Positions 13,501-46,300 of a stretch of DNA of 64,000 bases are shown in pieces (position 1 is the stretch's first letter; each line of letters opens with the position of its first letter). Made by a program: the position numbers and the translations under genes. The stretch lies in contig NC_088309.1 of the NCBI RefSeq assembly GCF_910592395.1, positions 17,174,599 to 17,238,598 on the forward strand, read 5' to 3'. The DNA comes from Lineus longissimus. Taxonomy: Eukaryota; Nemertea; Pilidiophora; Heteronemertea; Lineidae. Under the pieces are notes generated by a model. The model had not been told where the DNA came from and did not search any database. It saw only the letters and a program-made list of their open reading frames with translations.

Positions 13501-16500
13501 GGGCAGGGAATGAGATACGATGAAGTTGTTTAGTTGCTGGGGAAATTACTGGGAAGTGTGGTGGCGCAGTCTGCTAGGCAAACCGACCACACTGGGAAGC
13601 GTGTTGCAAAGTGGTAGAGTGCCCGACTCCTGACTGAGAGATTAGAATCCCTTCCATGCCATTCTGTTCTATTCACATTGGGATGGCATTAGAGTGACAT
13701 GTTAGCGCTAGTTAATTTCAAAGCTACAAATTGTCTGGTCAACTCATCTCTGCACAACCATGTTTTTGATGAGCCCACTGGTTGATACAAAAAGATGCCA
13801 CTGATCGAATCGTGTTCCAACTTTGTAGGCCAGAAATTTTATACCAATTTTGAATGCATCTATGGAAGCTTTCACTCAAAGTGACCCTACGCTGCCTGCG
13901 GATAAAGGCCTTGCTTTTGATTGTACATTGGGGTAAACGATATATTCAGCAGAAGATCGAAATATCGGTTATAAACATTCCAAAGAAATCGGCTTCGGTC
14001 TGATTCAGAAGGGTATATTTGACCAGTCAGCTTTAAGTAAATGCACTTCGCTCAGTAGCTGCTCCATAACATCAACTGGAGCACTCTGAGATGCTGAAAA
14101 GCTTCGACTTGAAAAAATGTAAAATAAATCCCGATCTTTTAACATAAACTGACAGGGTAGTCACAAGTACAGTGTCAACTCAACCAATAAACATACCTGA
14201 ATGAAGTCTAAATTGTCCTGGACACTCTGGTTCTCAAGTTTGATGAACTGTTCAATATGCATGAGAGCTCTGGTGTATGCCTTGCAGTTATATGAGGCAG
14301 CAGCCAGCAGGTCCTGGGGAATCTTCTCAAGGAAGTTCTTTATTGTCTTATACTCGGCATCATCGATGTAGGAGGGACAGGCTAGAAAGCAGAAGAAAGG
14401 TAATGAGCCTTTCTCTAACCTTGGTCACAAGATAGTACAAGTACAGTGGAACCTCCCTTAGCGGACACCTCTCTATCAAGGACACTAATTGTGGTCCCAA
14501 AGTGGTTGTTTCCATTCAATTTGACCTCTCTAATGAGGACACCTCTCTATTAAGGACAGCACTTGTCAGTCCAGAGGGTGTCCTTAATAGAGAGGTTCTA
14601 CTGTACTTTCAAGTGCAACTAAAATAAGAGTGATTAATTAAGGTTGTTAACGCAAGCATAATGGTACTGAAGCTTCTCCACCTCCCCTTTAACACAACTA
14701 TAGTCCGTTCATAAATAATTGTTTGGGGCTCTGGAGTGCCAACTACTGATTGGATTTCGTTGAAGACTTGTTTTTATTAATCTCAGCTTCAAAACCAAAG
14801 AAGATTTTGAGGGTAAAGGAATGTCAGTCAAGAAAAAAAGTTCTTCAGCCAAGCCGAATGGTCATTTTGGGGTCACTTGGATAGGCCATATTTTGGTTCT
14901 GGCTATTTTGAGATGCTCCCTTTTAAAGCTGACCAGTCAGTGGGGCAAATGGTCCCTTTGCCAGACTCTTGGTGGTCGTTCATTTGCGGCGGCTGCTCCA
15001 AAACTGTGGAACCAGCTGCCGCAAAAGCTTCGTAACACTGATTCCCTCCAGACTTTCAAGTCAATCCTAAAGGCCTACCTTTTTGCAGAAGCCTTTGGGA
15101 AAAAAGCGCTCCAGAATACCCACTCGCTGAGTAATTGGAGCGCTTTATATATGCTAACATTGATTGATTGATTGATTTGACTGAGAGGTTGGTTTAGTCC
15201 TTTCCACAATTCATCAGTGTAAATCTCCTGTCAATCCACTGTCGCCTTTAGAATAGTTGCCAGTGTGTCCTACACTTACACTGAGGTGTATCCCTTGAGG
15301 ATCTTGAGCCAGTGCTGGACAGGGTTTGGATGCGGTGCCGAATCCATTTAGTCAGATGGTCCAAAACCGAGAAAACCGTCTGCGCGCTCAGATGTCGGAA
15401 ATCCGACACACTGCCGAGTATCGTGTCTGCTTTCTTCACGTGACTCAGGACTTCTAGGATTTCCTGGGTGATCTTGAATTAAAATGAGGGAACAAATCAA
15501 GAAATGAACAAAGTGTTAGGCGTTTTTTAAGCTTTTTAAGCTTGTTTGTTGGCAGTTTCCAATCCGAAGGCTGACAATTTGGTTTCTTTTGTTGCCTACT
15601 CCCGCAGGCAAAGGAGGTTCAGAAGGCAGACCTGTGCAGGAATGTCAGTTAGGTTCCGTGAGCATTTTTAATACTAATGGGGCAATCTCATAAGGAAATA
15701 TGTCTAGAAGAGTGATTCTAATGGCCATGAGTGAGACATTAGGGAGGTTAAGGACTTTTCTACGAGACGAAATATGTCTAGAAGAGTGATTCTAATGGCC
15801 ATGAGTGAGACATTAGGGAGGTTAAGGACTTTTCTACGAGAGGAAATATGTCTAGAAGAGTGATTCTGATGGCCATGAGTGGGACATTAGGGAGGTTAAG
15901 GACTTTTCTACGAGAGGAAATATGTCTAGAAGAGTGATTCTGATGGCCATGAGTGAGACATTAGGGAGGTTAAGGACTTTTCTACGAGAGGAAATATGTC
16001 TAGAAGAGTGATTCTGATGGCCATGAGTGAGACATTAGGGAGGTTAAGGACTTTTCTACGAGAGGAAATATGTCTAGAAGAGTGATTCTGATGGCCATGA
16101 GTGGGACATTAGGGAGGTTAAGGACTTTTCTACGAGAGGAATGTCTAGAAGAGTGATTCTGATGGCCATGAGTGAGACATTAGGGAGGTTAAGGACTTTT
16201 CTACGAGAGGAAATATGTCCAGAAGAGTGATTCTGATGGCCATGAGTGAGACATTAGGGAGGTTAAGGACTTTTCTACGAGAGGAAATATGTCTAGAAGA
16301 GTGATTCTGATGGCCATCAGTGAGACATTAGGGAGGTTAAGGACTTTTCTACAAGAGGAAATATGTCTAGAAGAGTGATTCTGATGGCCATCAGTGAGAC
16401 ATTAGGGAGGTTAAGGACTTTTCCACGAGAGGAAATATGTCTAGAAGAGTGATTCTGATGGCCACGAGTGAGACATTAGGGAGGTTAAGGACTTTTCTAC

Positions 16501-19500
16501 GAGAGGAAATATGTCTAGAAGATTGATTCGGATGGCCATGAATGAGACATTAGGGAGGTTAAGGACTTTTCTACAAGAAAGAGAATGACTTGAACTCAAA
16601 TTGGTGCCAGAGTGGTACGAGCAGAGATTCATCAAATGTTAGTATGTGAAAATGCCCAGATTGAGAAAGCCATTTACAAAGTCTTATTTGTAGCCATGAC
16701 TGGCTATGGCTATCACGGCTTGGAAAGCGTCTCCATACTTTCCCTCTAGTGGGCTATTCACATCTAAACGTACAAATATCAATTTACAGGTTCACTGAAG
16801 TTCTCAATATGGTTATTTTTGTCAAATAACATAAAAGAATAAACTCCCAGGACCACACTACCCTACTTGAATTTCAAGTCGTTTTCATTCTCCCTATAAC
16901 TCCCCTTTGACTCTCAGTGCCAAAAACTTTACAAGAGTAGCTAAGCATGTTTAATTTTAATGATTAGGCAGCTCGAGTGTTAAAAGGTTTCTTACGATTT
17001 CATTTTCTTCAGGAGTTCCATCAAGGAGGGCATGAATGAGCACGTGTGGAAGGAGGTACAGAGCCAAGTGGGCATTGTATTTAATCGCGGCGCTGCATGA
17101 CTGGAACACTCTCATCGGCTTGTCGGCAGCCACCTAGGGGGAAAAGTGCAAAATGTGACAAATGGAAAGCACATATTGTATTCTAGTGAATCAAAGAATA
17201 AGTTAATCTTCGGTCCTCCCTTTTATCAATATGCGACAAGCGCCAACTTTAGCTAGAACTGGCCACATAATACAAACAAAATTACAATTTTCCTTAAAAT
17301 TGTTGTTAAAACACTGCTAGAAGAACCCAACATGGCTAAATCGCTCATTTGTAAACATTGTAATATGGAGATCAGATAACCACTCCAGGTGCACACCCAG
17401 TTATGAAGCTGTTCCCTTTCTAGCCGTGGTAAGTCAACAAAATACTTACTGGTTACAATGGCCTTAAAGGGGTACACCATTCGTAATTACTGGTGGTCCA
17501 GTTAACTAGAAATCCACTATTACACAATGCCGTAGTGCAATTATTATGAATACGAATTTGTTGAAAATATTGGTATTTATAGTATTTGTATATCTGTCTA
17601 CACAAAGGCAATGCTGAAATTTATATTGATGCAATCGAAAGTATTCAAATTCAATTACAAATTCAAAAATTTTAACGAACGGCATAGGCCTTTAATAATG
17701 CCAATGGTCCTTTAGACCGTTGTTTGGAAAATTACTAGAAGAACACAAGATGGCCTAACTCCTCTTTTGCAAATATCGCAATGGTACCAACCTTTGAGAT
17801 CAGATAGCCAGTCCAGGTGCACACCCAGTCATTGAAGTTGTTCCCTTTCTTGCTGTGGTAGATAGGATGGGGAAGCGTGCTCCAATCGGAAGTGGTCGAC
17901 AAAATATACCTGCAGGTATAAGGAATTATTATACACAAGAAAGGGAGACGGATGGTTGAAGGGACCTCACTTTTTTGTCATATTTAACGCACACATTTAT
18001 GTATTGGATAAGGGACAAAGAACAAGACAGGATTTGAATTATCAAACAAACCCAGCAACATTAAGGTCAAAGTAGAAATGCCGAATTTCTCTGGTAGTTT
18101 TTTTATGACAGAATTACATTTAAGTTTGTAATAAAGAAGCTTATATTTATGATTATGTCAATTCACCACTAGCCTTTGCACATAAAATGACAGTGCATGC
18201 GACTGCAGCTGAGAGTTGTTGCCAATTATGAACCACTGACCCCAATTTTTTGAAGGAGGAATCACTTATCGCATAACCAGGGATGCCAAGGAGACAAGAA
18301 ATAGTATGACATTTTTTCTTGTAGAAATATTGTCCTTTGATCAGAACTCACTTGCACAAAAATTCCTCTAAAATGTGAACTTTTTGTCCAAATTTGAAAA
18401 TTCAAAGATCCACAGAGAGTGGAGACAAAGATCTTTCCACTCCAGCTGCTTAGTAAGAGGAAAAAGTCTTAAATCCGTCTAAAATCAAAAATTTGACATC
18501 CCTGCATATTACCTTTATGAAATCATACAAGTAATCTCACCTGGACATTAACAGAGGAGACAGTATCTCCTGGACATGTTCTGGGAATCTGTTCCACAGT
18601 CGGCTCCCAGGACTCCCCTCTTCCGTCGAGCTCACCTCATAGATCTGCAACAATTCCTGAATGGCCAATGCCGAGCAATCCTGCAACAAATTTCGGTCAA
18701 AGCTATATAAAGTGGAACCTCCCATAGTGGACACCTTTCTATAAAGGACACCCTCTCTATTAAGGACACTGCAGTTGGTCCCAAACTGGTTGTTTCTATT
18801 ACATTTGACCTCTGTCATCAGGACGCCTCTCAATTAAGGATGGCATTTGTCAGTCTGAAGGGTGTCCTTAATACAGGGTGGATCAATAAAAAGGTAATCC
18901 TGAAATAAACAGCTTTTATGTGATAAGTATTAATGCCATGGATATTTCATTGCATCTATGATAAAGTGGGAGCAAGGCGCCCTTTCCATTGATGTCTTCA
19001 TAACACCCATGCGTTCACGGATGACCCTACATCATTTGCTTTCAAAATGACATGCTGAAATCTGATTTTTCCAAGTCACCTGTTCCATTCTTTTCATGTT
19101 GTGTTATGCAGGCGTATCCCTGGTGCATTTTGAGTACGTACATGAATTGAATGTAAAAAGAAGAGTGTCTCACCAGATTATCAGTTTATCAAGCGCCAAC
19201 ACCTTCAACATGACCAGCTCCACCTCTTTGGAAGCAGAGTTCACAACAATGTCGCATATCTTGAATTGCTCTTCTAACTATGGCCGGTTCCTCATGAGGA
19301 ATTCAGCAGAAGGTGGACATTCTTCGTGAGGACCCGGCCACGTTTAGAAGAGCAATTCAAAACATGCCACATCATTGTGAACTCTGGTCCATACTTACGT
19401 AGATGAAACTAAACTTGACACAGACTTTTCAACTGAAAAAAGCTAGTCAACTAAGGGCTTTATTGCCGCTTCCTCTCGTAGTGTAGCAACAGAACTGACC

Positions 19501-22500
19501 TGTGTTCTTGCATCTTCTGCAGCAAGGAAAGCTCTAGCCAGCTCATTGATCAAATCGAACGCAAAGTTCGAATCGTTGACTGAAGCGTGAAACTTGGCCT
19601 GTTCTTCTTTTGGGTTGTTGGTCTTCAAATCCAACCTGGAAACAATTTGAGGAAGAGCTAAATCATTCTGACCTACCGGCGGTGAACATCAGTCCTAAAG
19701 TCTCCTCCTTTCAACGGGATGGACATACGCACAAGGCTGGTCAAATCAAATCAGATTGGAGTCACCGTTTCTTTTTCACGTTGTCAGAATATGATTGGAA
19801 CACAGAAATGTTTACAAACCACTGGGCTCCTGTAGTCACGATCAAATTAGACATGTCACTGAGGAAGCAAAAGGTTTATTCATTCTATCCAAGGGATAGA
19901 AAGAAAGATTTTCACCAAAGAGAATTTTTTAACTACCATCACATTACAAACATCCTAAAGAGTCTAATCCTAACCCTAACCCACTTACCTCCCGGGGTCA
20001 ATAGCACCTAGTTCACCAAGGCATTCTCCAGACAGGCAACGAATCTTGGAATCGGATTCACGACAACCACCTAATAGCTAAAGAAATGCAAAGAAAACAA
20101 GAATAGGTGAAAACAGCCAGAGTTCAGCATCCAATGAAATACTTAATGGTGGATTATTGCTGCCGGTCCCACATCGATTTTATGACATTGGGTTTAGTCT
20201 GATATAAACTGTGGTGTCATCAGACTTCACACTTTAATCCCAGTGTATTTTGAAGCCTTTCAGTAGAACTCAGATGTGCTGCTCACCCAGCGCTACAACC
20301 TGAGCATTTCTGACCGGTACCCATTTTTACCCTTGCCATAATGGGTTAAGTTTAAGTGCTGTTCGGCAAGCAGCTCTCCAAACAAGACAACAAATGGTGC
20401 TAGTTCAGCGTGTGGGTCGCCAAATATCACTACACCACTCGAACCACATGACTCTGGGGGAACTACATGTATGACAGAACTCTCTAGGACAGCCAACGAA
20501 TGGGGTCGCGTTTCAAACTTTGAAGGCTGTGGGTAGGCTACATCACTGAGTCAGATCCATCAAACACCTTGGTGTAGTAAGCAACATTTATCAAACATAC
20601 CCCTCTTACGAGGATAACATGGGTTTTTTGGATATTTTGGGGGGGATATAACCTAAGTTTACACTTACAGCACCAGCAATCTGAGAGACCATCGGATCAG
20701 CCAACTCATTCCCGAGGACCATTTCCCGTATAGCGCTCTGGTTAGTATGCAGCAGTTGCTTCAGCTTCGTCAGAGCATGCATCCGCACATCTGGACTCTC
20801 ATGACCAACACCTTTCAACAGATGTGACATCTGGGTCTTAAGACTGGAGCTAGAAAATATTATTTGGAGATCAGAAACGGACCATTACATCTTGGAACCT
20901 TCTTACATCTGTGCGCTCCAATCAAGATAGGTGGTTCAGGAGCTGAATCAAGAGCAAAATTCAAAATTCAACAAATATTGTTCTTTGAATTTTGAAGAAA
21001 ACCAATTGTGTGACTTCAAAATTTCAAATTCAAAATTTCAAATTTCATATATTGAATTTTGAAGTCGTACAATTCGATGACTTCATAATTCAAAATTCAG
21101 TATTTGAAATTTTGAATTTTGAATTTTGAAGTCAAACAATTGGTTTTCTTCAAAATTCAAAATTCAAAGTTCAATATTTGTTGAATTTTGAATATTGAAT
21201 GAGCCTTCTGGGCTTTCGTATAATTCAGTCAGATTTCGTTTTATGTGCAATTTGGTAATGGAAACTTCTATAGGGTAGGAGGTGACTGAGCAGCTGACAG
21301 CTTGCTAATATTGCCCTTAATAACTCTGCTGGTCCTTTAACAACTCTACTGCTCCTTTAACCCCTTTAAAACAACTCAGACAAATATTTTCCTAATTTGA
21401 ATGAAATAAATCACACAAAGAAACAAAGAAAAAAAATTTACCTTTGCTGTCCCTCTTGGCATTTCTTTAGAAGAGCATTGACGTCTGCCAGCTCTGGTAT
21501 ATCTGGCATGAAGTACAACTCGTGGAAATGCTGCTTCAAAGCTCGCCGATTTTCAATGATCAAGAAATTGAAGATAGTGGCAACTTGAATTGGTAGTTTG
21601 TTGAGTAGGGGGATGAGGGTGACCACTATCTGGGAGAGCATTGGGCCAAGGGAGGAAATGTGAACACTGGAATGAATAGAGAATAGGAAATGCTGCTTCA
21701 AAGCTCGCCGATTTTCAATGATCAAGAAATTGAAGATAGTGGCAACTTGACTTGGTAGTTTGTTGAGTAGGGGGATGAGGGTGACCACTATCTGGGAGAG
21801 CATTGGGCCAAGGGAGGAAATGTGAACACTGGAATGAATGGAGAATAGGAAATGCTGCTTCAAAGCTCGCCGATTTTCAATGATCAAGAAATTGAAGACA
21901 GTGGCAACTTGACTTGGTAGTTTGTTGAGTAGGGGGATGAGGGTGACCACTATCTGGGAGAGCATTGGGCCAAGGGAGGAAATGTGAACACTGGAATGAA
22001 TAGAGAATAGGAAATGCTGCTTCAAAGCTCGCCGATTTTCAATGATCAAGAAATTGAAGATAGTGGCAACTTGACTTGGTAGTTTGTTGAGTAGGGGGAT
22101 GAGGGTGACCACTATCTGGGAGAGCATTGGGCCAAGGGAGGAAATGTGAACACTGGAATGAATAGAGAATAGGAAATGCTGCTTCAAAGCTCGCCGATTT
22201 TCAATGATCAAGAAATTGAAGACAGTGGCAACTTGACTTGGTAGTTTGTTCAGTAGGGGGATGAGAGTGACCACTATCTGGGAGAGCATTGGGCCAAGGG
22301 AGGAAATGTGAACACTGGAATGAATAGAGAATAGGAAATGCTGCTTCAAAGCTCGCCGATTTTCAATGATCAAGAAATTGAAGACAGTGGCAACTTGACT
22401 TGGTAATTTGTTCAGTAGGGGGATGAGAGTGACCACTATCTGGGAGAGCATTGGGCCAAGGGAGGAAATGTGAACACTGGAATGAATAGAGAATAGGAAA

Positions 22501-25500
22501 TGCTGCTTCAAAGCTCGCCGATTTTCAATGATCAAGAAATTGAAGACAGTGGCAACTTGACTTGGTAGTTTGTTGAGCAGGGGGATGAGAGTGACCACTA
22601 TCTGGGAGAGCATTGGGCCAAGGGAGGAAATGTGAACACTGGAATGAATAGAGAATGGGAAATGCTGCTTCAAAGCTCGCCGATTTTCAATGATCAAGAA
22701 ATTGAAGATAGTGGCAACTTGACTTGGTAGTTTGTTGAGCAGGGGGATGAGGGTGACCACTATCTGGGAGAGCATTGGGCCAAGGGAGGAAATGTGAACA
22801 CTGGAATGAATAGAGAATAGGAAATGCTGCTTCAAAGCTCGCCGATTTTCAATGATCAAGAAATTGAAGATAGTGGCAACTTGACTTGGTAGTTTGTTGA
22901 GCAGGGGGATGAGGGTTATCACTATCTGGGAGAGCATTGGGCCAAGGGAGGAAATGTGAACACTGGAATGAATAGAGAATGGGAAGATGCCGTGTCGACC
23001 AAGATGAACAATATCAGAAAGAAAGTATGAAATACCACCATTGTTTGTAGATCGACATAGAATTTTGTTGAGGCTAGCTTTCGACACTACCGTGACTTCC
23101 TCAAGGTGTGCCAGGGGTAAGTTTTACTCAGCATCAAATATAAACAAGCAAAATAGTACAGTGATTGTTGGCAGAACTGGAGATCACAAAATCCACACAG
23201 GCAATACAGTACGAACAAGGGAATAAAAGGTACAAATCAAAAGAAAACAGGCTGGATGAATAACACTGGCTTTTCAGAGATGGGACTGGCCAACGGACCA
23301 ATGATAAGATATGTAGCAGACGTCCTTTTGCAAGCAATTAATACAAAAATTGTGATGGCAATTCAAATGCATTTGCCTGAAAGAACATACCTTTCTAACA
23401 CTCGATGTTTTAGATTTTCCCTAAAATCTGTCGCAGACGTACTTTTGCAAGCAATAAATACATATATACAAGAATTCCGACGGCAATTCAAATGCAGTAG
23501 CCTAAAACTGACTCCCTTTTTAAGAATCAATGATTTAAATTTCTCTCAAATTAAATGTATCAAAATAGAATTGTTTACCGCTTTATATTTGAAAGCCTAG
23601 TATTGTCACAATTTTGGCGAGAGGGGTACAATTTCAAAAGTAAGGGGTGACATTTTTTTTAATATGATGCTTTTATCACTGGAAAATTTACCCATTCTCA
23701 GGATGAGCGGAGAATCTGAAAATGATGTTTTTGTCAGTAGTGTCTTCCTGTCTGCTGTTTGTGAATATTTAGGGCCACGAAAATAAAGGGGTTTTCCTTA
23801 TCGGATGATTTCTAACATTTTATCCACAAGGTTCAGTGGAAGTTGTTTGAGCGTCAGGCTTATAACTGGACAGATCAGCACTGTTTCATCTTTGTGTACA
23901 TGGGCAAGGCACTTAACCCAACTTGCTTCTCTTCACCCAGAAGTAAATGGGTACCAGGCTTGCCTGGGATGTTAACCAGCAATAGACCAGCATTCGATCA
24001 AGGGGGACGTACTCCTAGTCGCTTAATGCTATGGAATCCGGGATAAATCTCGGCCGGATGGGCTGTTTGCAGCTCAAGCAATAGCCCAGCGGACTCCCAC
24101 TTTTAACAATAGTTTGTAGAGGATGACAGCCTGGGGAACTGATATCTTACCTTCGAACGAATGTGTTCCAAGCCTTACAGCACACCTCCGGTATGTCCTT
24201 GTCCTTGAAGCCAAGGCCTATCCTCAGGGTGGTCATCACCTTCACTCTCACCGTGGTGATGTGCTTGGTACCCATCAGTGTCATGATGGCAGTCAAACTC
24301 TTCAGGGCCTGTCAAAATCAATATACAGCAAAACCTCTCAATTAAGGACACCCTCGGGACTGAGAAGTGCTGTCCTTGATAGTGATGTGTCCTGATTAGA
24401 GCGGTCTAACTGAATGGAACCAACCAATTTGGGACCAAAACTAGGGTCCTTAATAGAGGGGGTGTCCTTATTACAGAGGTGAGGTTTTCCACTGTACAAG
24501 AGAGGTTCCATTGTACTATCTGTAAAGTGAAATGATTTCTAAATGAGTAATATTTTTTCTTGATTTAATTCAATTTCGAAGGCTCAATCCTGTTATCAAA
24601 TTCATGGCCAGATATTTGTTCCCCCTTTATATTACAAGGAGTTGCATGGAAGGACGATGAGCGCAAGAAACATACCATTCTCTTCTCGGGGAATGGAACA
24701 CTGTTGGTCAAGAAGTGTGTATCAAAAGATGCCAGGATGCCAAGCAAACGTGGCTGCAGAAAGTCGGCCATCTCTTCGGTTGTGTTCACCAACTTATCCT
24801 CTGTCTTTGCCAACATTTTCAGAGCATTGAAGACCTGAAAGAAAATTGTTCGAGTTTAAAAAATGGTGTCAGAAGACAGAGTGTGCCCACTACGTGTGCA
24901 TCACCACTACATGTGCAATCCCAAATGCCTGGTAGGTTAGATGTATCAGCTAGGTTGAGGGCAAGTCACCAACGAGAAAAACCCCAAAACAAGAGCTGTT
25001 ATTGCCAAGGACAAGCCCTCGCGAAGTCACATAAACACAAGCTCGCATCTACATGTTATCTGTAGACCAATGTTTTACAACTGGGACTCAATGTTTTGTC
25101 TTCTTCTTCTGCGTTCGGAGTTTTTGAGATGTACACTAGACAGGCCGTCCTTTTTCGGTAACAAAAGTCGGCTGTCCTAGACAGTTCCACCAAAGAGCCC
25201 CAGAGCTTTGTGGTCAGGGTGGTGTCCTTTGGCCAGTATTCCTCCTCTCTATTCTTCATAAGGGAGGAGGTCTGAAGCCACAGAGCCCCACAGCTTTGTG
25301 GTCAGGGTGGTGTCCTTTTGCCAGTATTCCTCCTTTCTATTCTTCATAAGGGAGCCGGTCTGAAGCCACAGAGCCCCAGAACTTTGTGGTCAGGGTGGTG
25401 TCCTTTGGCCAGTATTCCTCCTCTCTATTCTTCATAAGGGAGCAGGTCTGAAGCCACAGAGCCCCAGAGCTTTGTGGTCAGGGTGATGTCCTTTGGCCAG

Positions 25501-28337
25501 TATTCCTCTCTATTCTTCATGAGGGAGCAGGTATTAAGCACTCGAGCTTGAATCTGATCTCCAGCTTCACATTTACATCGAGCACTTCATGTCTTCAACA
25601 TCTCAAGAGATAGTACAAGCCAGAAGTGACAAGACAACTGCAGTATAATGATGTAGACAAATCTACCTCACCTCGTTATAATGAGTTCCAAGATAGAGCA
25701 GCAGTTCATTTTGCAGTTTCTGGCAGTCCAACCTGAACAGGGACTGCAGTTGTACTTTGGTTTCTGTCTGAAGGTACTGAAGTGCGGTATCCAGGTCCTG
25801 TTGGCCACACGTCCGCACTAGATAGCAAAATGTGTACTTGGTACTGCTGATCAAAACCTTGGCATAATTCTGGAAAAGGAATTTATTTATTGAAATCTTT
25901 GCGTAGTACTGGATACAAAGTAACAAGAACTAGAAATGAGTGAACACCAGGAAAAGAGAAAAGTATGCGGGGTAGATAACAACAAACATGGTGGAAAACT
26001 AGTGTCGATTCACTGCAACAATTCAATTCTGCCAGAATACAAGGTTCTCTCACAGGTTTTCTCAAGGTAGGGCGGTACCCTTGTTATTCAAGATGTTTTG
26101 CCAATGTGCAACACAAGGTTGGGTGGCCAGCAATTTAAGGTAGGGTGGCCCTCTTGAAACCATTTCCAATTTCTAGAGCAAGGTAAGGTGGCTGCTTCCA
26201 AGGTACGGTGGTAAGCTACCAAGGTAGGGTGGCCCTTTTGAAACCATTTCCTGTTTCTAGAGCAAGGTAAGGTGGCTGCTTCCAAGGTACGGTGGTAAGC
26301 TACCAAGGTGGGGTGGCCCTTTTGAAACCATTTCCAATTTCTAGTGCAAGGTAAGGTGGCTGCTTCCAAGGTAGGGTGGTAAGCTACCAAGGTAGGGTGG
26401 CCCTTTTCAAACCATTTCCAATTTCTAGTGCAAGGTAAGGTGGCTGCTTCCAAGGTAGGGTGGTAAGCTACCAAGGTAGGGTGGCCCTTTTGAAACCATT
26501 TCCAATTCCTAGTGCAAGGTAAGGTGGCTGCTTCCAAGATAGGGTGGTAAGCTGCCAAGGTAGGGTGGTAAGCTGCCAAGGTAGGGTGGCCCTTTTGAAA
26601 CCATTTCCAATTTCTAGAGCAAGGTGGGGCGGCTGCTTCCAAGATAGGGTGGTAAGCTGCCAAGGTAGGGTGGCCCTTTTGAAACCATTTCCAATTTCTA
26701 GTGCAAGGTAAAGTGGCTGCTTCCAAGGTAGGGTGGTAAGCTACCAAGGTAGGGTGGCCCTTTTGAAACCATTTCCAATTCCTAGTGCAAGGTAAGGTGG
26801 CTGCTTCCAAGATAGGGTGGTATAAAGCTGCCAAGGTAGGGTGGCCCTTTTGAAACCATTTCCAATTTCTAGAGCAAGGTGGGGCGGCTGCTTCCAAGAT
26901 AGGGTGGTAAGCTGCCAAGGTAGGGTGGGCCGCCCTGACAAAAGGTCTTGTGGAGACCACTTGGATACACAGTGACAGTGACAATCTGTTCAGTATGCTT
27001 TGGCAGTCATCTTTCTAAGTACAGAGACACAATAATCTCAAAGGGTGAATGCATGCAGGAGACTTTTTTCTAGGAGTACGGCCACTTGCTCCAGCCCATA
27101 TGATTGCATGCAAACTTATTCAACTGCAGACTTACCACATGGAGAGTCTTGGCAATGATCTTGATGAGCTGTGATGTGGTGGCATTGGCCTTGCTCACCA
27201 GGTATGGAATGAAGTATTTCTCATAGGTTCGCTGAAAAACAATACAAGATAAGAGCAGTTTGAATGCCGAAACACTGAAAATATACCCCCTGATCATAAT
27301 GAAATGGCCAGGGCCATTGTGCTCACCTCATGTGGAGGAAAGATGGATAAAGAGCATGGTATTGTGTCATGTAGTGTTAGGTTTGATGTAGGTCCAAGCA
27401 ATTACAATTTCCCCAAAATGGCCAATTTACAGTACATTCGACCTCTGTGACCTTGAAAAGTAGGTCAAATCAAAGAAGACCCGGGTGACACATTGAATGG
27501 TTGTTAGAATTAGACGTACCTATGATATAAAATTGGTGCCAATCGGGCAAGTCATTACTGGGAATAATGGCATTTTGAAGAATTTAGGATTTGGCCCCCT
27601 CCCTGGAGGCCAAATGGCAAATCAGATCGGACCAAACTTCAGTACCTGAGATCACCTGACCAAGGGGTCCATGTGTACTTAATTTGTGATCAATAGTCAT
27701 TGCAGTTAAGAAACGTGCCACAGTTACGGCCTGACGGCGAATTTATGCCATTTGACCTCTGTGACCTTGACAAGAAGGTCAAATTAAAAACCTGTGTGAC
27801 ATATACTGTATGGTGGTTAGATGTACCCATGATATCAAATTGGTGGCAATCGGGCAAGAAGTTAAGGAATAATTACATTTTTAAGGTTTTTGGATTTTGC
27901 CCCCTGGTGGTCAAGTGGTGAATCATATTGGACCAAACTTTGGTCCCTGAGATCACCTGACTAAGGGGTAAATGTGTATCAAATTTGGTATCAATAGTCA
28001 TTGCAGTTTAGAAACGTGCCATCGTTACATCCTAACGGCCAATTTACACCATTTGACCTCTGTGACCTTGAAAAGGAGGTCAAATCAAAAACCCGGAGGA
28101 TATATGATGCACCTTTGCTAGAAGTACCTACCATATTTTTTTCAAAATTTCCCGACTACTATTAAGGGAGATATTGCATATTTTCACTTTTAACGTTTGG
28201 CCCCCTGGTGGCCAAACCATGAAACGAATCGGACCGAAACTTGGTCTCCAAGGTGTCATTACATAAGGGTACATGTGTACCAAGTTTCAACTCAATAGCT
28301 CTAACAGTTACGAAACGTGCCCTGCTAACGGACGACG

Positions 28338-34300: not shown

Positions 34301-37300
34301 ATACAGTTGTTGTGGTAAAGAAATGACTCCTTCATGGAACTGAACTACATAGGAAAGCACTGTACAAGTTTGAAATTTATTTATTGATTTGAAATTTATT
34401 CTGATCATATCATGGTATCAGTTGTATATGCAGCTCTCAGCCTAAAAACTTTAGTATAAAGTTACAAAGTTAAAGTTTGGGTGTATTATCAGATTACAGC
34501 TGCTGAAGAGGTGACATCTGACTTCCCACTTTAACGCCGTTATATCCTGAAACATTTCAGATTACAGCTGCTGAAGAGGTGACATCTGACTTCCCACTTT
34601 AACGCCATTATATCCTGAAACATTTCAGATTACAGCTGCTGAAGAGGTGACATCTGACTTCCCACTTTAACGTCGTTATATCCTGAAACATTTCAGATTA
34701 CAGCTGCTAAAGAGGTGACATCTGACTTCCCACTTTAACGACGTTATATCCTGAAACATTTCAGATTACAGCTGCTGAAGAGGTGACATCTGACTTCCCA
34801 CTTTAACGCCATTATATCCTGAAACATTTCAGATTACAGCTGCTAAAGAGGTGACATCTGACTTCCCACTTTAACGCCATTATATCCAGAAACAGTTCAG
34901 ATTACAGCTGCTAAAGAGGTGACATCTGACTTCCCACTTTAACGCCATTATATCCTGAAACATTTCAGATTACAGCTGCTGAAGAGGTGACATCTGACTT
35001 CCCACTTTAACGTCGTTATATCCTGAAACATTTCAGATTACAGCTGCTGAAAAGGTGACATCTGACTTCCCACTTTTAAAGCTATTATATCCTGAAACAT
35101 TTCAGATTACAGCTGCTAAAGAGGTGACATCTGACTTCCCACTTTAACGCCGTTATATCCTGAAACAGTTCAGATTACAGCTGCTAAAGAGGTGACATCT
35201 GACTTCCCACTTTAACGACGTTATATCCTGAAACATTTCAGATTACAGCTGCTGAAGAGGTGACATCTGACTTCCCACTTTAACGCCGTTATATCCTGAA
35301 ACATTTCAGATTACAGCTGCTGAAGAGGTGACATCTGACTTCCCACTTTAACGCTGTTATATCCTGAAACACTTCCAGAAAACACAAGATGACCTGCTCA
35401 ATCAGTGCTACGACCTCACCTGAGCATTTCTGACCGGTACCCATTTATACACCAGGGCAAAGTAATGAGACCTGCCTAAACTTTCACGCCGATTGTGGGT
35501 TTCGGAACCAGGGCCTCTGGACAGCTAGCTGAGGGACTGACATGACTGAGAAACTAGTCCAAGACAGAAGCTCAGCAAGAAGAACTTGGCAAACTTTACA
35601 CAGAACAATTCCTCTACAACAAGAACAAAATTAGGAGTCTTCACTGATTTGGATTGTCCTGAAAGAACTGATAAACTTACGATTGTAAGACGGCCTTCCT
35701 TGAAACAACACAGGCCAATGGTCCATAAATTTGAGCGAGTTCACAAGACACCTTCGTGCAGGTCTCCTTAACTAGGTGGCTGAAATTAACAAAGGAAAAA
35801 TTAAGCAAAAGGATATTATAGGGTACTGTTCGTCAAGTGCAGCACCCGCAGCCTATCAAACTGAAGAAAACCAGAGAAAATGTATCATCGAGGAGATTTT
35901 TAAAAATGAAGTGACGTACACAAAAATGTATGTCTATCTACTCATCACATGCTAGTAAACCCTTATCTATCATTGCAAGGAGGCAAGACATGTTATTCTC
36001 TCCTTTCCCGTTGCTTAGAAATACTTCAGCGAAAACCATCAATATTGACCAGAAAAACATTTCTCCACGCTTTTACGTCACGCGTTAAAAAGGTAAACAG
36101 AAGTAAAGTTTGCTTTTTATTGTAGTGTCACCCCTGATGAAAGTGCCAGCCAGATTGGGTTTCTGAGACATTTTACTTCCAAATTCCTACCTCAAATGCC
36201 AGGTGCCTGATGAGAAGGCAGTCTGTACCCTATATCTAACTCATTTTATTTTGAGAGAAATAAAGAAACATCGTGTGGTTCTATATTTAACTAGCTCGTG
36301 GCTAACCAACAATTAACAATTAACGATTTTCCAGCTCTACCGGTCAATTGTCAAACAGTGTAAACATATTTACAGTAAACACAGAAGAAAAGCAATAAAA
36401 AATTAAGTACATTATACTGTATCTTACAAAAAATGATTCCCTTTTTTTCAGAAAAAATCTAAAGAATCATACATACTGCAGTAAGTCATACACAAGATGA
36501 TTGCCATTGGGTCCATAGTAGTATAGCAGGGTTGGGAAACAATGGATTGACCAACACTTGAGCCCTTTATCAGAGTCGTTCTAAAGGATAAAAAAGAAAA
36601 TGACTGAAATGTCACTTGAGATAATGTTCATGACTATGATTGCGTCTGCTCTAGTAAGCATCTGTTGCCTATTGCTACAGCTCGGTACCAATTCAGGTCA
36701 TTGGCCTAGAGAAGACCAGTTATCATCATAGTCGTATTAAGTTATCAGTAATCAAGCTAAGCGAAAAAAATTACTTCATGATTCAGGGACAGAAAAGAGG
36801 CATTAGGCTTAATCTACCACACTCATCAAGCATGTCAAGTAACTCTGCTTGACCTTGGATCGCCACTGATGACATACTTCCTTTCGCATCAATCCCAACA
36901 CAGAGGTACAATCACAGAGAAATGGAGTATACACCTGGACACAAAGTTCTGGATCTAGCAGGGCGATCTCTTTGCTGTCATACTCACCAAGGCACTCTGC
37001 ATCACCTTGGATCGCCACTGAGGACACACTTCCTTTGGCATCAAGCCCAGCACTGAGACACAGTCACAGAGAGACTGTGGGGACAATTTGTCAGCAAGGA
37101 CTGTAGCCAGTTGGGCGATCTCTTTACTGTCGTTACGCTTCAGGTCCAACCAAGATATATCATTCTGAAAATGAATTTAAGCTGATGAACTTATTTGGGA
37201 AACAAATATGCTTTTGAAATAACAAAAAATGTGCCTTCTCCTCTAAACATTGAAAATCAGATGCGCTTCTACCAACAGCCACTAAGGAGATATTTGCAAC

Positions 37301-40300
37301 AAATGCCAACTAAAAGTTCCCAATGTCCCGCAAATGCAATACGCTTCATCATCCCCAGATAGCCACAGGGGACCAACTCAACAACCCAAAACTTAACACA
37401 AGTACTCTGCAAGGGTTGCCCAAGGCCTCAAGTGTGACTACTTGTTCTAAGGTTGTTTTTTAAAGAGACCATGTTTTAAGATAATCTGCTAGTCTTTCCT
37501 TTTAGGCAGGCTTACTCTAGCTAAGATCACTTTCTGAGTGCAACTGGACTCAAGCTATATATAGAAACTGACCCCTTTAATACTGGCAGCCACTGCACTG
37601 GCAGCTAGCTCTAGCAGAAACAACTTAAGCCCGCAGCACACTAGCCGCCAACTTTGGCGACAAGAAGCGTTCGGCTGACGCCTCTCGACGCCAAAGTTCG
37701 CGGCCAGTGGATCCCGGTCAGAGCACACCTTCCCAGAATTGGCGTCCAGTAGCGTCTTTTCCGCCACTTTAACCCATCCTGGGCCATGCAGCGCGAAATC
37801 ATGTGACATCAAGACGCAAGCTGATTGGCCATAGCCTCGCCGCCGACGCCAAATCAGGCGGCCATCCGTAGCACACCTGGCTTCTTCTTGCGTTCAAACG
37901 CGGCGACATGCGTCAAAAATCAAACATGTTAGATATTTGGCATTTTGCGGCAAGTGACGTCAAGTTGCGTTCGCCGACGCTGTTCGTAGCAGACTAGGGA
38001 TTTTTCAGGCGTTCAGGACTCTTGCGGCAAAAAATGCCTGTGAATGCCGAAGTTGGCGGCTAGTGTGCTGCGGGCTTTACTGAGAACCACGGGATTTGAG
38101 CTCACTCTACTGATGACTTCTTACTGAGGGGCCCTGGAGTCGAGCTAACTCTAGCGAGGACTATAACTGGGAGCCACTGGAGTCGAGCTAACTCTAGAGA
38201 AGACTACTTACTGGGAGCCACTGCAGTCGAGCTAACTCTAGCAAAGACTACTTACAGGGAGCCACTATTGTCGAGCTAACTCTAGCGTGGACTACTTACT
38301 GGTAACCACTGGAGAGTCAACATCCATGAGAAATCCAACCACAAATCGGGAGTACTTTTCATCACATCTGAAACGAAAATTGAATTTTATTCAAGACCCT
38401 CAGATTTCAGGCTGCGTGCTGTGGTATTTTTTCTGAGAGTAGTTCACCGATGTATCCTTGTGGGGTAGGATAGACGAAATCGCTTACCTCCAACCACAAG
38501 GATTGCACCCATGGTCCTGACAATCTGGCTGTAAATCTGGGCAACATGTTCGGCTTGCATCTGTTCAGCAGCAAGGAACCTCAGAGTACTCCTGAAGACA
38601 TCACACAAAGTCACCAGGAACTCCTCAGACGCGAACCCTGGGCTCAGTGCCAGAACATTCTTGGCATGCCTTGAAAAAAAGGAAGTGAACTCACTAGAAA
38701 TTCAAATGATGAAGTAGTTTTTGATTGGGAAAAATTTCTCGTTACAGCAAAATAAAAATTGCCTTTTATATTTTCACAGATCACCAAAGTGAGGCACGAA
38801 TATTTGGCAGTGTGCAGTTGTCAACGTGGATCCTAAACTCACTTTGATAGCAGCGCCATTGAGAGGACTTCTGTAATAACCCTTAGCCCCTCCACCATCC
38901 GCGACACACTACTGCCATCCTGCAAGAGAAGAAATTGATCAGATTTATATTTTTCATTTGTTTCTTACTTTAATATAGGTTAGTTTAGCCAATGGTTTCA
39001 ACCTCGGTAATTTAAACTGAATGTTTATTGACAAAACAACTTCATGCCCACATTTTGTTTCAGTCCAAAAAGACCAGAAATCATCATTCAGCGATGCGGG
39101 TTTCTTATTCAAATAGAACAATATTGAGTGTTCCCAGAGCACTTTAACAAATTATTCTAACACATCTCGATTGCAATATGTCTGTATTATCATTATACAC
39201 AGTGCCTCATTATTCCAGCAGCGGTCTCAATTTTTCAATCGAGATATGGAAGAATGCAGCCACGGTGAAATATAGTTTTCAGTATGTTGTTTTGTGCTGA
39301 CAACTCGTTAAATTTAAGGTATGATAGAATTGAAATCAACTCTGCACTGTGGGGTCTCTCGACTAAAATCGAGCCCGTCAGGTTTAGCTCAAATTCTGCC
39401 CCAAACCTTTGGTGAAAGCACATATGGCTTCAGATTTAGCTTCACCTTCCCAGTCTCGATTTTCGGACAGAGATCCACCAATGCAGTGTTAATTCCTCAA
39501 CAAAGACAACTTCTAAGTCTCCTTTTTACCAAGTACAGTAGAACCTATCTATTACGGACTTCCCTCGGGACTGACAAGTGCTGTCCTTAATGGAGAGGCG
39601 TCCTGATTAGAGGAGTCAAATTGAAGGGAAACAACCAATTTGGAGCAAAAACTAGTGTCATTAATAGAGAGGTTGTCTTTGATAGAGAGGTTGTCTTTAA
39701 TAGAGAGGTATCTGCTAAAGGAGGTTCCACTGTATAGAACGATTTAAACTCTACTTGCTAACGTACATTCTGGCCGAGGTTCATCAACTGCGTGAGGACA
39801 AAAGTTCTCTTTCTTAGCAGTTCCTGATAGAGTACTCCACCAGCAACTGACGATTGTGGGTCCACATCTGATCTGAAACAGTAGAAGTAGGCAAGGAGAT
39901 TTCTAAACATCTTTGAAAGGGCATGTTGGTATTCAATAGATATATGCATGAGGACCATAATGACATCCAATTCATAGAGACATCATGAAAGACGTGATGA
40001 TTATACGAGTTCGTTGAGCAGTGAAGCTCTCTGTGAGAAGACGCTGACAGAGGACTTTGCCGACGTAATCAGACGCCGCAGACTTGGCTTAGAAATGTCC
40101 TCCGGATGAACCCAGGCAGCTTGCCAGAGACTGCCCTGCATTGGACCCCCAGAGAGAGAGGAAATGAGGCAGACCCAAAGCCACCTGGAGGAGCACTATG
40201 TCAGAGGAGCTGCAACTCATGGGGCTGACATGGGACGAGGCACAGCGGGTAGCAGGAGACCGTAAAGGCTGGATGAAGCGTGTTGTGGCCTGTCCCACTA

Positions 40301-43300
40301 GGGAAAAAGAGCCATAAGTAAGTAAGTCATTTAGCAGTTCTAAAATATTTTAGACAGAACTTCATGAGAAATCTGCAAGGTTTTGCCACCTGAAAGCAGC
40401 CGCAAAAACCAGTGTCAAACTTACTGGCAGAAGGAAACTAAAAGGACACTTTCTATTAAACAAATATTACTCACTTCGCAAAAAGGTCCTCTTGAGAGCA
40501 GAACTTATCCTCAAGTTCGAGGTCCAGCTCAAACCATACACAAGGGACAAGGAACTGGGAAACAAAATAACAGGAATACATATATATCCATTGAGCGAAC
40601 AAAAAAGAACATTTAAAGTTGACTATCTCGAAGACGCATGGTGAGAAGTCAATAAGATTTGGCTTTCATCTACACTGACATGATACACATGATATAAGCT
40701 TGAAGACTCTTCACATAGTGAGGAAATATCCGATGGCATGCCAAAAATTGCTGTATGATATCATTTTATACAATTTCTTTCCTAATCGTTCTTGGCGCCA
40801 AAACAAGACGGTGCCATGTTGGCAAAAATGACGTCATACCATGTCAAGTCCAAAAAAGACATTTGCGGCGGACATTTTTCACCTCCGCCAGTCCACACAG
40901 AGCAGTGGACGGCTATTGCCCGACATGCCGAACACTGCTTACTTTTATCTGAACAGGCAAATAATACCATAGTTTCAGGATCTAATGTTTCCTAGGTGCA
41001 TTCGGCATATCTAGAGAGGTTGCAGCCAAGTGCTGATCGACTGAAATCGTAGCAGGGCATGACGTGCTATGCATGCATGTTACCAGCATGTGATGGGGAC
41101 ATGTGACATGACGTGCTATGCATGTCACCAGCATGTGATGGGGACATGTGACATGATGTGCTATGCATGTCACCAGCATGTGATGGGGACATGTGACACG
41201 AGGTGCTCTGCACGTCACCCGCAGCAAAAAGGCCGACAGTGTTGCCCTCTAGAGAGATACCGAGACAACTATCCACGACTTCGTAAAACATAATCTTGCC
41301 CCTCTGGTGTCTGAAGCCTAAAGTCTCAACTTTACACAAGACAATAACCCCTTGCCTACGTAATGCGTACCCCGTACGCAGTAATTTGCTATCCCAGGCC
41401 ACGTCACGCGTACTGGGTACGCCTAAAAAAAAGCGTTTTAAGTGAATGCATAGTACTGCCATCTGCTAACAACTTTCGTAACTACTCTAATGATTCGTGC
41501 TGCCAGTACAAACATTCGGCGGCCATTAGAATTACATACACAATGGCGAGTACTCACGGCGTTCCTCACAGGTAAATTCAATCATGGAAAAAGTGCTCTC
41601 GTGTCCCAGGTGGGCAGTTGCTCAGGAGGCAAAGGGTTAGTTAATATACGCACCTGTGCAGTGGTAAGCATCCCTATTTCAAAACAAAGCTGTGAACTCC
41701 ACTTGGACCTGATCTCCTTCAACGAGGGACTCTGAATCACGCTTGCCGGCATCTCCTTCCAAACCTTCATGACAAGCGTGCACATCTTCGCCATCAGTTC
41801 ATTTGAAAGTTTCTCCGGTCGGTGTCTGGCCACAGCAGACGTCAGTGACACCAACATTTGTTCAAAATGGTACAGCTCGAGATTGTTGCTGCTTCCAAAG
41901 CCCTTGTTGGCGATGAAGAATTGCGAGAAACAGCTACACCAACTCTCCTCAAGGCCATCTGTTGTGCTGCAAAAAACAAGATTAAATGAAATAGCTAGGG
42001 CCATTGTGCTCACCTCCCTTAGCGACTGTTTATTACATATGATAAAAGTATTTTCCAATGATCAAGCCCTTAGTTTTTGATTTTAGCCACCTGGTGGCCA
42101 AACAAGGAATCAAACTGGACCAAAATCAGTTAGGGAGATATAGCACTTTTTGTGTTTTCGGCAAAGGGCTACATATGCAACAAGTTTCAAGTTGACAGCT
42201 CCAGTATTTACATGCTTTGCAACATGCCTTGCTGACGGACCTTGCGACATAAGATAAGCTCACCTCTCTGGGGTTAGCTAAATAGCAAGGTTATATCCAA
42301 AATGCAATTCAAGCCCTAGTATTGCACTGAGCAATGTACCGCCTACTGTCATTATAAACTTGACAAATGTTTTCACTGATTTAAAGGTCTAACCTTCCAA
42401 ACATGCCCTGTTCCTCCACAATGAAGTCAATCATTCCCTCCAGACAAGACACAGCATAATCCAAGGGCTGGGGAGATGGAAGGCCAACGTACTTCAACAA
42501 CATAGTCATCGCATCAAGTGAGACCTGCAAAAAACCATGGTGTGCCAAGTATTCAAAAATTTGTTAATTTTTTCTTCATGAATCCGTTAATTTTGAATTT
42601 TTCTGTACAATTTCTGAAACTGGGCAACTAGGTCCACAGTGAACTATAAGGATAATATCTTTCTCATTAACTCTTTCCTACCGCACCCAGTGTGGGATTT
42701 TCTGGGTGCGGTAGTGAAAGGGTCCACACACTGCATGCTACGTACTACTGCTGGCCCACAGTAACCCGTACCGCAAGATTTTTCCGAAGTTCTATCATTC
42801 AACCACAGTCCCTATAAGTCTTTGGCTGGTTACACCTGAAACAATGAGCTGGCAAGCACGGCAGTCCACCCAATGCACACCTCATCCCTGAGATTGGGTA
42901 GTGCCAGCTATTTTACAATGAAAATTTTGCCAAGTTTAGAATCCAGGCAGTCCGGTCTTCGAGGTGCAGGCCAGGGGTACAGTACAGTTCAAAGGGTTAG
43001 GAAGACGTTAGATCACAACATTCTGGGAATGTTACGATTCAGAGGTTTTTTCACATATAAAACATCTTGTGAACCAATAAAGCATACCTTTTTAACATTT
43101 GGTGCGCCATATTCTACCTGACACCCAATGGCTCCCCAGATCAGATCCAAATACAGTACAGTTCAAAGGGTAAGGAAGACGTTAGATCATAACATTCTGG
43201 GAATGTAACGATTCAGAGGTTTTTTTCACATATAAAACATCTTGTGAACCAATAAAGCATACCTTTTTAACATTGGGAGCGCCATATTCTACCTGACACC

Positions 43301-46300
43301 CAATGGCTCCCCAGATCAGATCAACCTACAGTACAGTTCAAAGGGTTAGGAAGACGTTAGATCATAACATTCTGGGAATGTAACGATTCAAAGGTTTTTT
43401 TCACATATAAAACATCTTGTGAACCAATAAAGCATACCTTTTTAACATTGGGAGCGCCATATTCTACCTGACACCCAATGGCTCCCCAGATCAGATCCAC
43501 CTACAGTACAGTTCAAAGGGTAAGGAAGACGTTAGATCATAACATTCTGGGAATGTAACGATTCAGAGGTTTTTTTCACAGATAAAACATCTTGTGAACC
43601 AATAAAGCATACCTTTTTAACATTTGGAGCGCCATATTCTACCTGACACCCAATGGCTCCCCAGATCAGATCCACCTACAGTACAGTTCAAAGGGTAAGG
43701 AAGACGTTAGATCATAACATTCTGGGAATGTAACGATTCAGAGGTTTTTTTCACAGATAAAACATCTTGTGAACCAATAAAGCATACCTTTTTAACATTG
43801 GGAGCTCCATATTCTACCTGACACCCAATAGCTCCCCAGAGCAGGTCCACCTTAGCGCCAGCAACTGCACTCTGGCAGGCCTCAGTCAGATTGGTCATGA
43901 AGATACTCCTGCAATCAGAATGGAAAGAAGTGTTATAAATCCTCTGCCTCAAGACAAAGAGACTTACTGTTGGCCTCGCAGTTTTAACCACTTTTGAACC
44001 CCTTGTCACAAAATGTGGGACAACTTCGTGACCTCCTGGTTGCAAAGTTGCCAGGTACTTCTTCCTTTGCAAAATTTAATCCAAGTACATGTCATGATAC
44101 TTACGTAATAGCTATCTGTAACAACTCGCATGATTCTGGTGTAGAAACGATCACTGGTTTCTGACACATTTCTATATCATCAACGTTAGTCTGAAACAAA
44201 TATGACACAAATACTAAATATACATGTACCACATTTTGAAATAAGAGTGATGAAAATACAATTCATTTGGCTCTGGGGGATACACCACTGGTCTGATTTC
44301 TTCAAAGTTTCATATATTGAGCCGAGTTGAGAATAGGATTAAGCAAGTCTGAGAAGCCAAATTTTGGGGTCTCCCTGCCCTGCCACAGTCTAGTGGTCAA
44401 CACTGCTGGGTGCCACGCAATAGGGCCAGAGTTCAATCCCGGGTAGAACCCTGGATTATATTTCTAGATGAACCGGCATGGTTTTCAAGGAACTAAATTC
44501 CTGGCTTTTCACAACAAGTTTGAGGCTCAATATGTGATAAAATGAAGGTCTGTCGGATAACTCTAATAGTAAAAGCTGTGCCTGTGGTCCTTTATACCTT
44601 AGTGTCTATGCCAGGGCAAAAGATCCCCCCGCAGGTGGAGAGTAGCCTATAGTCGACTCGATACCTCCGGCAGAAATTCCAAAGGGCGTCGGTAATGATG
44701 ACGATGGAGAGTGAGTGGCAATTATGACATAGAATCTAACAAAGATACCTTAGCTGCAGCAGCACCTGTTGGACAAGCTGGGCTGAATCTTTTGATGATG
44801 GTTGATTCCAGGACGACACAATCGTCACAGAACTGATCATAGAGAAGTGCAAGATCTAAAAGTGAAAGTTCGAAATTACATGTACATAACTCAATCATGA
44901 TAACATTGACAGTTTTTTTTTCAAGAATCATCTCATACATGTAACTTTCATTTGAAATTTGAGATTCGTCACGATTTTAGAAACAAATTCATTCATTTGC
45001 ACCTTTTTCAAAACAAATAAAGGCAAACAACCGTATCAACTCTTTTAGGGGCGAATTTCATCCCAAACCTGACCATTTCTGCACAACTTCATGTCACTTG
45101 TATGCCCAAAGGGTGTCCTTAATAGAGGATTTACTGCACTGCCTTGAATTAGTTTACTGCATGTATCATGTTTGAAATAGGCCTACACTGATAATGTGAA
45201 CTGCTAAATTTTTGTGGGTATTTACTTTTTCGTACATTTTGTGAAAATAAAAATCGCCAAAACAATTTTGCATTGGAAAACCGAAAGAAATGCAAAATGG
45301 GGAAATACAGTAGAACCTCTCTATTAAGGACACCTTTGGGACTGGGAAGTCCTTAATAGAGAGGTGTCCTGATTAGAGAGATCAAACTGAATGGAAACAA
45401 CCAATTTGGGACCAAAACTAGTGTGCTTAATAAGAGGTGTCCACTAAGGGAGGTTCCACTATATATCACATCGGAAATCATTACCTTTTTAAGCATTTGA
45501 GAAAATTTTGTGAAAAATGTGGGGCAACATTTTTTCGGTATACGCTACGCATCTCGTACCCAATTTATCGCATGGAGCAGACAAGAATGGTGTGAAAGAA
45601 GAAATGGTAGATGACCAAATATACCACACCTCCGAGGCAAGAAATCAACTCGGATATCAAAATAAGGAAGGCGTGTGGTTCTTTCCATCTCAGCAGCTTG
45701 AAAATGGATATCAGGGCGCTCAAAGCCTTGTCGTGCAGCACCGTGCAGCTGGGGTGACCAAGAATACAGAGAAGTCGCTCGATTATCCATAAGGTGAATG
45801 CTGCAATGGAAAAAGGGTTGATAAACATTTCGCTCAAGACTATGAGCTGTCTATAATCTTCAAAAGTTTTTAAAGTTAAAGTGTTGGTTTGTCGTCTGAT
45901 ATCAACAACAGTAGAAGTTATCATCCGATTTCACACTTTTACGCAAGTCTGTCCTGAAACCTTTCAGTAGAGTTCAGAAAAGCTGCTCAATCAGCCTTAC
46001 AATCTGAGCATTCTGATTGGTACCCATACACTGGGCTGGAGTAAAGCATGTAAGGTGAAGAGACATGCCTAGAGTCATACGCCGACAGTGAGGATTGAAC
46101 CAGGGATCTCATAACTGACAGTCTGGCACCCGATGAAATGACTGACAGTCTTACACCACGGGAATTCCTTTCAGTCATTCACAAGCGTATTTATTAGCCA
46201 ACAACAGACAAACGTGATGCCATTTTTGATTACACAGCTCAAGTGCTGTTCACAAGGAGAAGAGAGATTGGGGTAAAAAATGCAGGAGACCAGGGCACAT

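Follow-up and report, generated by a model that had tools for sequence, protein, structure and literature searches.

The window considered here is a stretch of 64,000 nucleotides from the nemertean Lineus longissimus (contig NC_088309.1, positions 17,174,599 to 17,238,598), and all coordinates below are counted within it. It holds, on the minus strand, a large part of the gene for the checkpoint kinase ATR, in which the boundary between one intron and coding exon 28 is repeated nine times in tandem. These copies are here taken to form, most probably, a minisatellite that splicing tolerates.

The ATR gene

The exon model built from the window (1,753 residues) matches human ATR with an E value of 2e-286, most strongly in the middle and later parts and weakly in the N-terminal third. 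The nearest protein by far is the deposited 'serine/threonine-protein kinase ATR-like [Lineus longissimus]' (P0001, 2,632 aa), the listed name of which carries no isoform label. Residues 1-2195 of P0001 are covered by exons of the window, 2,192 of these 2,195 being identical in some match, which confirms the original prediction that this is an ATR gene on the minus strand; the three mismatches (residues 114, 688 and 1586) fall at the ends of exon matches. Residues 2195-2575, including the kinase exons, are found in the stretch just left of the window (L009), and the ATR N-HEAT, UME, M-HEAT, FAT, PI3_PI4 kinase and FATC regions are all present in P0001 (Pfam).

The coding exons, 50 in number, were mapped from 49 tblastn matches, one of which was split in two, and their ends were refined for only part of them. 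Identity is at least 95% in 33 of the 49 matches, 90-95% in five and lower in 11, the last because the matches run past the exon. The mapped exons have a median length of 131 nt (longest, 313 nt; n = 50), and the introns one of 658 nt (n = 49). Short exons separated by longer introns are the layout in which splice sites are usually recognized across exons, and the architecture of the ATR gene suits such exon definition. In this count the exon carrying the array is number 28, and not 27 as had been predicted.

Anatomy of the array at coding exon 28

The array and its neighbourhood comprise the following features:

24151..24308, minus strand: ATR coding exon 27, the upstream partner, with donor CGAAG/GTAAGA (P0001 residues 1127-1178; splice phase; human ATR alignment)
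22963..23016, minus strand: unique intron adjoining unit 1 upstream, belonging to a zone of 109 nt that lacks AG; yTnAy candidates lie at -52 and -43 (unit comparison; consensus scoring)
21524..22990, minus strand: array of nine 162-bp units (Tandem Repeats Finder, TRF; unit comparison)
21667..22962, minus strand: eight further in-frame copies, intron in the deposited model (exon mapping; unit comparison)
21442..21666, minus strand: coding exon 28 of ATR in the form present in the deposited protein, made of unit 9 and a unique tail (225 nt in all) (P0001 residues 1179-1253, 100%; serine-to-isoleucine change of unit 9 only)
20669..20851, minus strand: ATR coding exon 29, the downstream partner (P0001 residues 1254-1315)

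TRF reports 9.0 copies of the 162-bp unit with 98% matches at 21524-22990, and the pairwise identity of the nine units ranges from 0.951 to 0.994 (mean 0.979). On the minus strand each unit consists of the 3′ end of the intron, the acceptor and the 5′ part of the exon (about 20 nt of intron and about 140 nt of exon), reading TTCC[T/C]ATTCTC[T/C]ATTCATTCCAG and then exon sequence, while the joint from one unit to the next reads as the end of the exon part followed by TTCCTATTCTC. The first exon bases of the nine acceptors, at 22962, 22800, 22638, 22476, 22314, 22152, 21990, 21828 and 21666, are spaced by steps of 162, and a CAG acceptor with an 82% pyrimidine tract is found in nine of nine units, splice and branch-point scores being simple consensus counts throughout. 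The nine units of exact period, each with its own 3′ splice site, thus stand as first described. Their division into 20 nt of intron and 142 nt of exon holds as one fit, though not as a unique one, a split of 23 + 139 fitting equally well; the choice is set by where the 4-base TTCC match at the unit ends is placed.

The upstream exon (24308-24151) ends in CGAAG/GTAAGA and each unit presents CAG/TGTTCAC, giving the joint codon AG/T, so that the joint of exon 27 to a unit reads FVR-S-VHISS in the same frame for all nine acceptors. The frame stays open on the minus strand between 23123 and 21438 (561 aa), in agreement with the earlier statements that no stop occurs for 1,521 nt and that all nine AGs join the upstream exon in one phase. 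Begun at the last acceptor, the array exon is 225 nt long; begun at the first, it would reach 1,521 nt. Whereas the array itself is certainly beyond chance, the open frame is much less so, because the chance that the period is divisible by three and that about eight intron-derived codons are free of stops is about 0.23.

Of the ten sites at which the nine units differ, two lie in the 23-nt intron part and eight in the 139-nt exon part. Private changes mark unit 1 (sites 66 and 68), unit 9 (site 100) and, with one each, the interior units 4 (site 93) and 8 (site 11), and some changes are common to neighbouring interior units in a blockwise manner. When the whole assembly was searched with one unit, at least nine matches were found, all at the ATR locus, repeat counts being lower bounds. 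At the protein level, the exon part of the unit aligns with approximately residues 1202-1248 of human ATR (numbering of chain 23ew_A), where the UME region of the solenoid ends, and the Pfam UME match ends at residue 1199, 21 residues into the array exon. The units are predicted to be helical, and it is only this that can be taken from a three-unit structure model built without an alignment, given its low scores (mean predicted local distance difference test, pLDDT, 53.9; predicted template modelling score, pTM, 0.38).

The copy used in the deposited protein and in relatives

P0001 holds the array segment once (...WNTFVRSVHISSLGPMLSQIVVTLIPLLNKLPIQVATIF...). The isoleucine of its LPIQ motif corresponds to a G-to-T change that only unit 9 has; serine is encoded in the eight remaining units. 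Since the single copy carries this unit-9-only isoleucine, the deposited model, as read from its protein, splices exon 27 onto the acceptor at 21666, so that units 1-8 count as intron.

Relatives were examined as the 120 listed of 401 matches, all of them protein models. The array exon is matched once in 120 of these 120. In 119 the aligned region about it varies in length by -4 to +2 aa, and P0036, in which there is a gap of 391 residues, likewise has a single copy. The other nemertean among the matches listed, Tubulanus polymorphus (P0002), also has one copy. Human ATR and the other listed relatives thus carry once a segment that is present nine times in the Lineus DNA. At the position of the unit-9 isoleucine the 120 proteins have isoleucine in one (P0001 itself), serine in two and lysine in 86. 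When the nine-unit frame was compared with proteins in search of other tandem copies, the 7,991 top word-sharing candidates that were scored gave one match, a UME protein of Ixodes covering 12% of the query.

Sister duplications in the ATR gene

A scan of the 50 mapped exons with 80-bp flanks against 3 kb on either side found copies overlapping the exon for five of them, namely exons 6, 13, 14, 28 and 33. Besides the array described above, these are:

42978..43852, minus strand: array of five 175-bp units spanning the end and donor of coding exon 6 (TRF; exon map; exon-copy scan)
38077..38314, minus strand: array of 5.4 44-bp units that covers the donor of coding exon 13 and the 15 exonic nt before it (TRF; exon-copy scan)
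36836..37131, minus strand: two-copy 152-bp duplication of coding exon 14, decayed, 76% identity (TRF; exon-copy scan)
17302..17431, minus strand: second copy, decayed to about 75%, of the end of coding exon 33 (17792-17909) that carries the donor; it lies 429 bp downstream and not head-to-tail (exon-copy scan)

In the exon-6 array intron is joined to exon in such a way that copies 2-4 have the look of complete in-frame mini-exons of 63 nt, with an acceptor (ctgtag/GTG or GTT), a donor (AAG/gtatgc) and a CTAAC branch-point-like site, while copy 5 has lost the acceptor AG. P0001 uses the authentic copy of this exon (100% identity, the four others being 91-95% identical), and the deposited model uses the first donor. 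At exon 13 the shifts of 88 and 132 bp stem from the 44-bp array, a 65% match lies 716 bp away, and only 12-15 nt of the exon are involved. Some of the exon-overlapping duplications of the gene have periods that would break the frame.

Because four further exons carry overlapping duplications, the exon-28 array is part of a minisatellite habit of the ATR gene. The 64-kb window is rich in tandem arrays of this kind (period ≥40), with 14 against 3.5 expected from a 200-kb sample (11 arrays in twenty stretches at set places). That the arrays are drawn to splice sites was considered and rejected, since four of the 12 arrays of period ≥40 in ATR overlap exons against 3.27 expected for randomly placed unit-sized seeds (P = 0.42), and neither targeting nor function is therefore needed as an explanation.

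A boundary minisatellite probably tolerated by splicing

In the light of these features, the array is probably a minisatellite, produced when a stretch straddling an intron-exon boundary was duplicated in tandem; it would be of the kind called 'mirage' in amphioxus and would be tolerated through the choice of the nearest splice site. Growth would have begun with a duplication between two short stretches of like sequence (TTCC at the intron side and again within the exon) and continued by unequal exchange up to nine units, a course suggested by the unit edges and by the blockwise sharing of changes among neighbouring units. The spliceosome would take, by exon definition, the acceptor nearest to the exon's own donor (after base 21442), leaving units 1-8 as intron, and the array would be tolerated because only the length of the intron changes. 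The same rule of the nearest site may also explain the exon-6 array, of which the first donor is used. The acceptor at 21666 is locally adequate: its tract has 82% pyrimidines, and its AG-free zone of 24 nt is ordinary for the ATR gene, zones of 25 nt or less being found at 17 of the 46 acceptors scored, 21666 included (three of 49 could not be scored). Such an array would be nearly neutral, its length would change readily, and new exons might arise from it.

Related systems

Relatives of such an array were sought mostly in the open-access literature. Mirages are described in amphioxus as minisatellite-like duplications of intron-exon boundaries (PMC3087553). The one in BflGb6 consists of units of 150-160 bp of 3′ intron and 5′ exon, present in six and three copies on two haplotypes; many units contain splice signals, the copies at the edges escape homogenization, splicing is reported to be regular by reverse transcription polymerase chain reaction, and a part in intron gain is proposed (PMC3087553). 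The Lineus ATR array resembles it in its tandem units of 3′ intron and 5′ exon that carry splice signals; it differs in coming from a nemertean instead of a cephalochordate and in having nine units of an exact 162-bp period with a frame open throughout. Mirages in lancelet PGBD5 occur in 60- and 108-bp versions, and those of Adh and TnC are cited as giving no aberrant mRNA (PMC3902484); the units of Adh3 measure 10-72 bp, and somatic instability is reported for this gene (as told in PMC3087553 and PMC3902484). The Adh3, TnC and PGBD5 mirages are like the Lineus array in that repeats lie over splice sites, and unlike it in gene and phylum and, for Adh3, in their shorter units. A looser relative is found in human segmental duplications, in which tandem repeats at exon-intron boundaries change splicing, can form new introns and may be kept or spliced out (PMC2812944); there recent paralogues were compared and the introns are novel, whereas in Lineus an existing boundary is repeated within one ATR gene.

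By its structure the Lineus array may be counted among the mirages, as it has near-identical intron-plus-exon units across one boundary, with splice signals in the units. Among the papers listed (in one search 15 of 400), no report of mirage-type arrays in nemerteans or other spiralians was found by title or start of abstract, which is no proof of absence. As far as the literature was searched, a mirage-type array in this phylum is therefore new, the kind being already known from amphioxus.

Alternative explanations

Several points weigh against a tolerated, unused array. Homology may have guided the placing of the deposited model, and with short reads the nine acceptors are hard to distinguish, because the first 139 nt after each are nearly identical. 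Only at unit 1 is the old intron preserved, with an AG-free zone of 109 nt and candidate branch points CTGAT at -52 and TTCAT at -43, while units 2-9 have a single candidate, TTGAT at -56, followed by three AGs before the acceptor; if acceptors are chosen by scanning, unit 1 should be preferred. Of the intron modifications at the human boundary repeats (27 found), 66% also have support for a transcript in which the repeat is kept (PMC2812944). Finally, the differences among the copies that are intron in the model are synonymous in eight of 11 cases (five of seven in units 1-8, three of four in exon-6 copies 2-5), although 69-77% of random changes, according to the array and to transition bias, would replace an amino acid or introduce a stop, and this skew may mean that the copies are, or formerly were, translated.

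The probability of three or fewer non-synonymous changes among 11 is P = 0.0059-0.0012 at an assumed non-synonymous fraction of 0.686-0.75. For the 162-bp array by itself it is 0.013-0.035 with units 1-8 and 0.027-0.069 with unit 9 added, and for both arrays with their authentic copies 11 of 16 differences are synonymous (P = 0.0003-0.0024). The decayed copies at exons 14 and 33, by comparison, have 15 synonymous and 24 non-synonymous changes and one stop. These figures come from a post hoc test in which two arrays were pooled, sites were treated as independent and two changes in one codon of unit 1 were scored as one non-synonymous and one synonymous. Equally, the skew may reflect variants that had passed a filter in the authentic exon before they were copied into the array. 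Furthermore, variability is not clearly lower in the exon part, with eight of 139 sites variable against two of 23 in the intron part of the 162-bp array, and two of 63 against four of 112 elsewhere in exon-6 copies 2-4, which argues against strong constraint.

Were the distal acceptors used at least in part, ATR would bear one to eight extra helical units of 54 residues next to the UME region. Such an exonic array would agree with the skew, with a frame open through all units, with nine near-equal acceptors in phase, with the uninterrupted branch-point zone found at unit 1 only, with the in-frame 63-nt mini-exons of the exon-6 sister array and with the repeats kept in human transcripts (PMC2812944). 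It is nonetheless improbable in view of the one copy in a deposited protein named without an isoform label and of the lack of more than one copy in any of the 120 listed relatives; moreover, the open frame has an appreciable chance of its own, an exon of 1,521 nt would be nearly five times as long as the longest one mapped, the extra units would break the UME domain match, and the skew, found post hoc at 11 sites, can be explained by filtering and copying, variability being not clearly lower in the exon than in the intron part. More improbable still is the full isoform ladder, in which Lineus ATR would have from one to nine HEAT-like units via the first acceptor, the skew would be a trace of selection and the exon-6 mini-exons would form a second, independent in-frame ladder. 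The original prediction of a checkpoint kinase with one to nine HEAT hairpins is thus not supported, in view of the single copy reached via 21666 in the deposited ATR, of the single copies of the listed relatives and of the other duplications, some with periods that would be frame-breaking, whereas its own fallback, a harmless array that splicing must ignore, is the better-supported reading.

A mixed state, which overlaps both the tolerated and the exonic array, would have the main mRNA made from 21666 and pieces of array exon included occasionally as splicing noise, as raw material for exons or introns. The exon-6 mini-exons with acceptor, donor and CTAAC branch-point-like site speak for it, as do the intron-gain model proposed for amphioxus mirages (PMC3087553) and the alternative transcripts at human boundary repeats (PMC2812944); since copies elsewhere are decayed and one exon-6 copy has lost its acceptor, it is held to be possible but on the whole unlikely. 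That the number of units is an artefact of assembly, or the state of one individual, seems highly improbable. Tandem units of near identity are well known to provoke errors of assembly, and an amphioxus mirage was misassembled in a draft genome (PMC3087553), but the present assembly, of which one haplotype was analysed (the alternate one being GCA_910592375.1), was made from HiFi reads with hifiasm (contig N50 10 Mb; PMC8593623), so that a 1.5-kb array should be spanned by reads; in addition, the units differ by ordered private and shared changes and the window contains no N. A boundary minisatellite left in the intron by the choice of the nearest acceptor is the explanation favoured here.

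Other repeats in and around the window

Large minisatellites also occur within introns of the gene, at 15693-16578 (74-bp unit), 25190-25539 (88 bp), 26137-26928 (84 bp) and 34489-35375 (68 bp). The 88-bp, 68-bp and 74-bp arrays were considered as spanning ATR exons, since some of their units resemble an acceptor followed by exon, and rejected, the exon map placing them inside introns; acceptor-like TTTCAG or CTTCAG occurs in the 68- and 88-bp units, though no ATR exon lies there. An 18-bp unit, GTGTCCTTAATAGAGAGG, forms an array at 750-1079 and recurs in scattered pieces of two or three copies (TRF).

Odd arrays in three of the sampled stretches (L019, L023 and L027; three of the 11 arrays of the 200-kb sample) were tried as further mirages and none was counted, Pfam being empty for the four neighbouring frames tried. 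In L023, at 1017-1124, two 53-bp acceptor-like copies of polypyrimidine-CAG type adjoin an open frame and are perhaps a small mirage in another gene; in L027, at 7068-8075, 12.8 copies of a 79-bp unit have an acceptor-like CCCTCAG and a donor-like ACAG/GTACTG on either side of a short open stretch.

Upstream of ATR exon 1, at 53180-56061, two inverted stretches of short GTCGTTTCGCTACATGG-type repeats flank two frames, and the whole is perhaps a mobile element. The frame at 53512-54618 has weak PHD and OTU matches, below the Pfam cut-offs; that at 55368-55802, which we take to resemble part of a reverse transcriptase, has no Pfam match.

Significance

The presence of several arrays in one nemertean ATR gene, some fresh and others decayed, suggests that the habit of duplicating splice boundaries is not peculiar to cephalochordates. 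The exon-28 array offers a natural test of how the spliceosome picks one of nine equal acceptors, and of whether arrays of this kind seed new exons and introns. If it were true that the copies are translated, Lineus would possess a checkpoint kinase of variable length.

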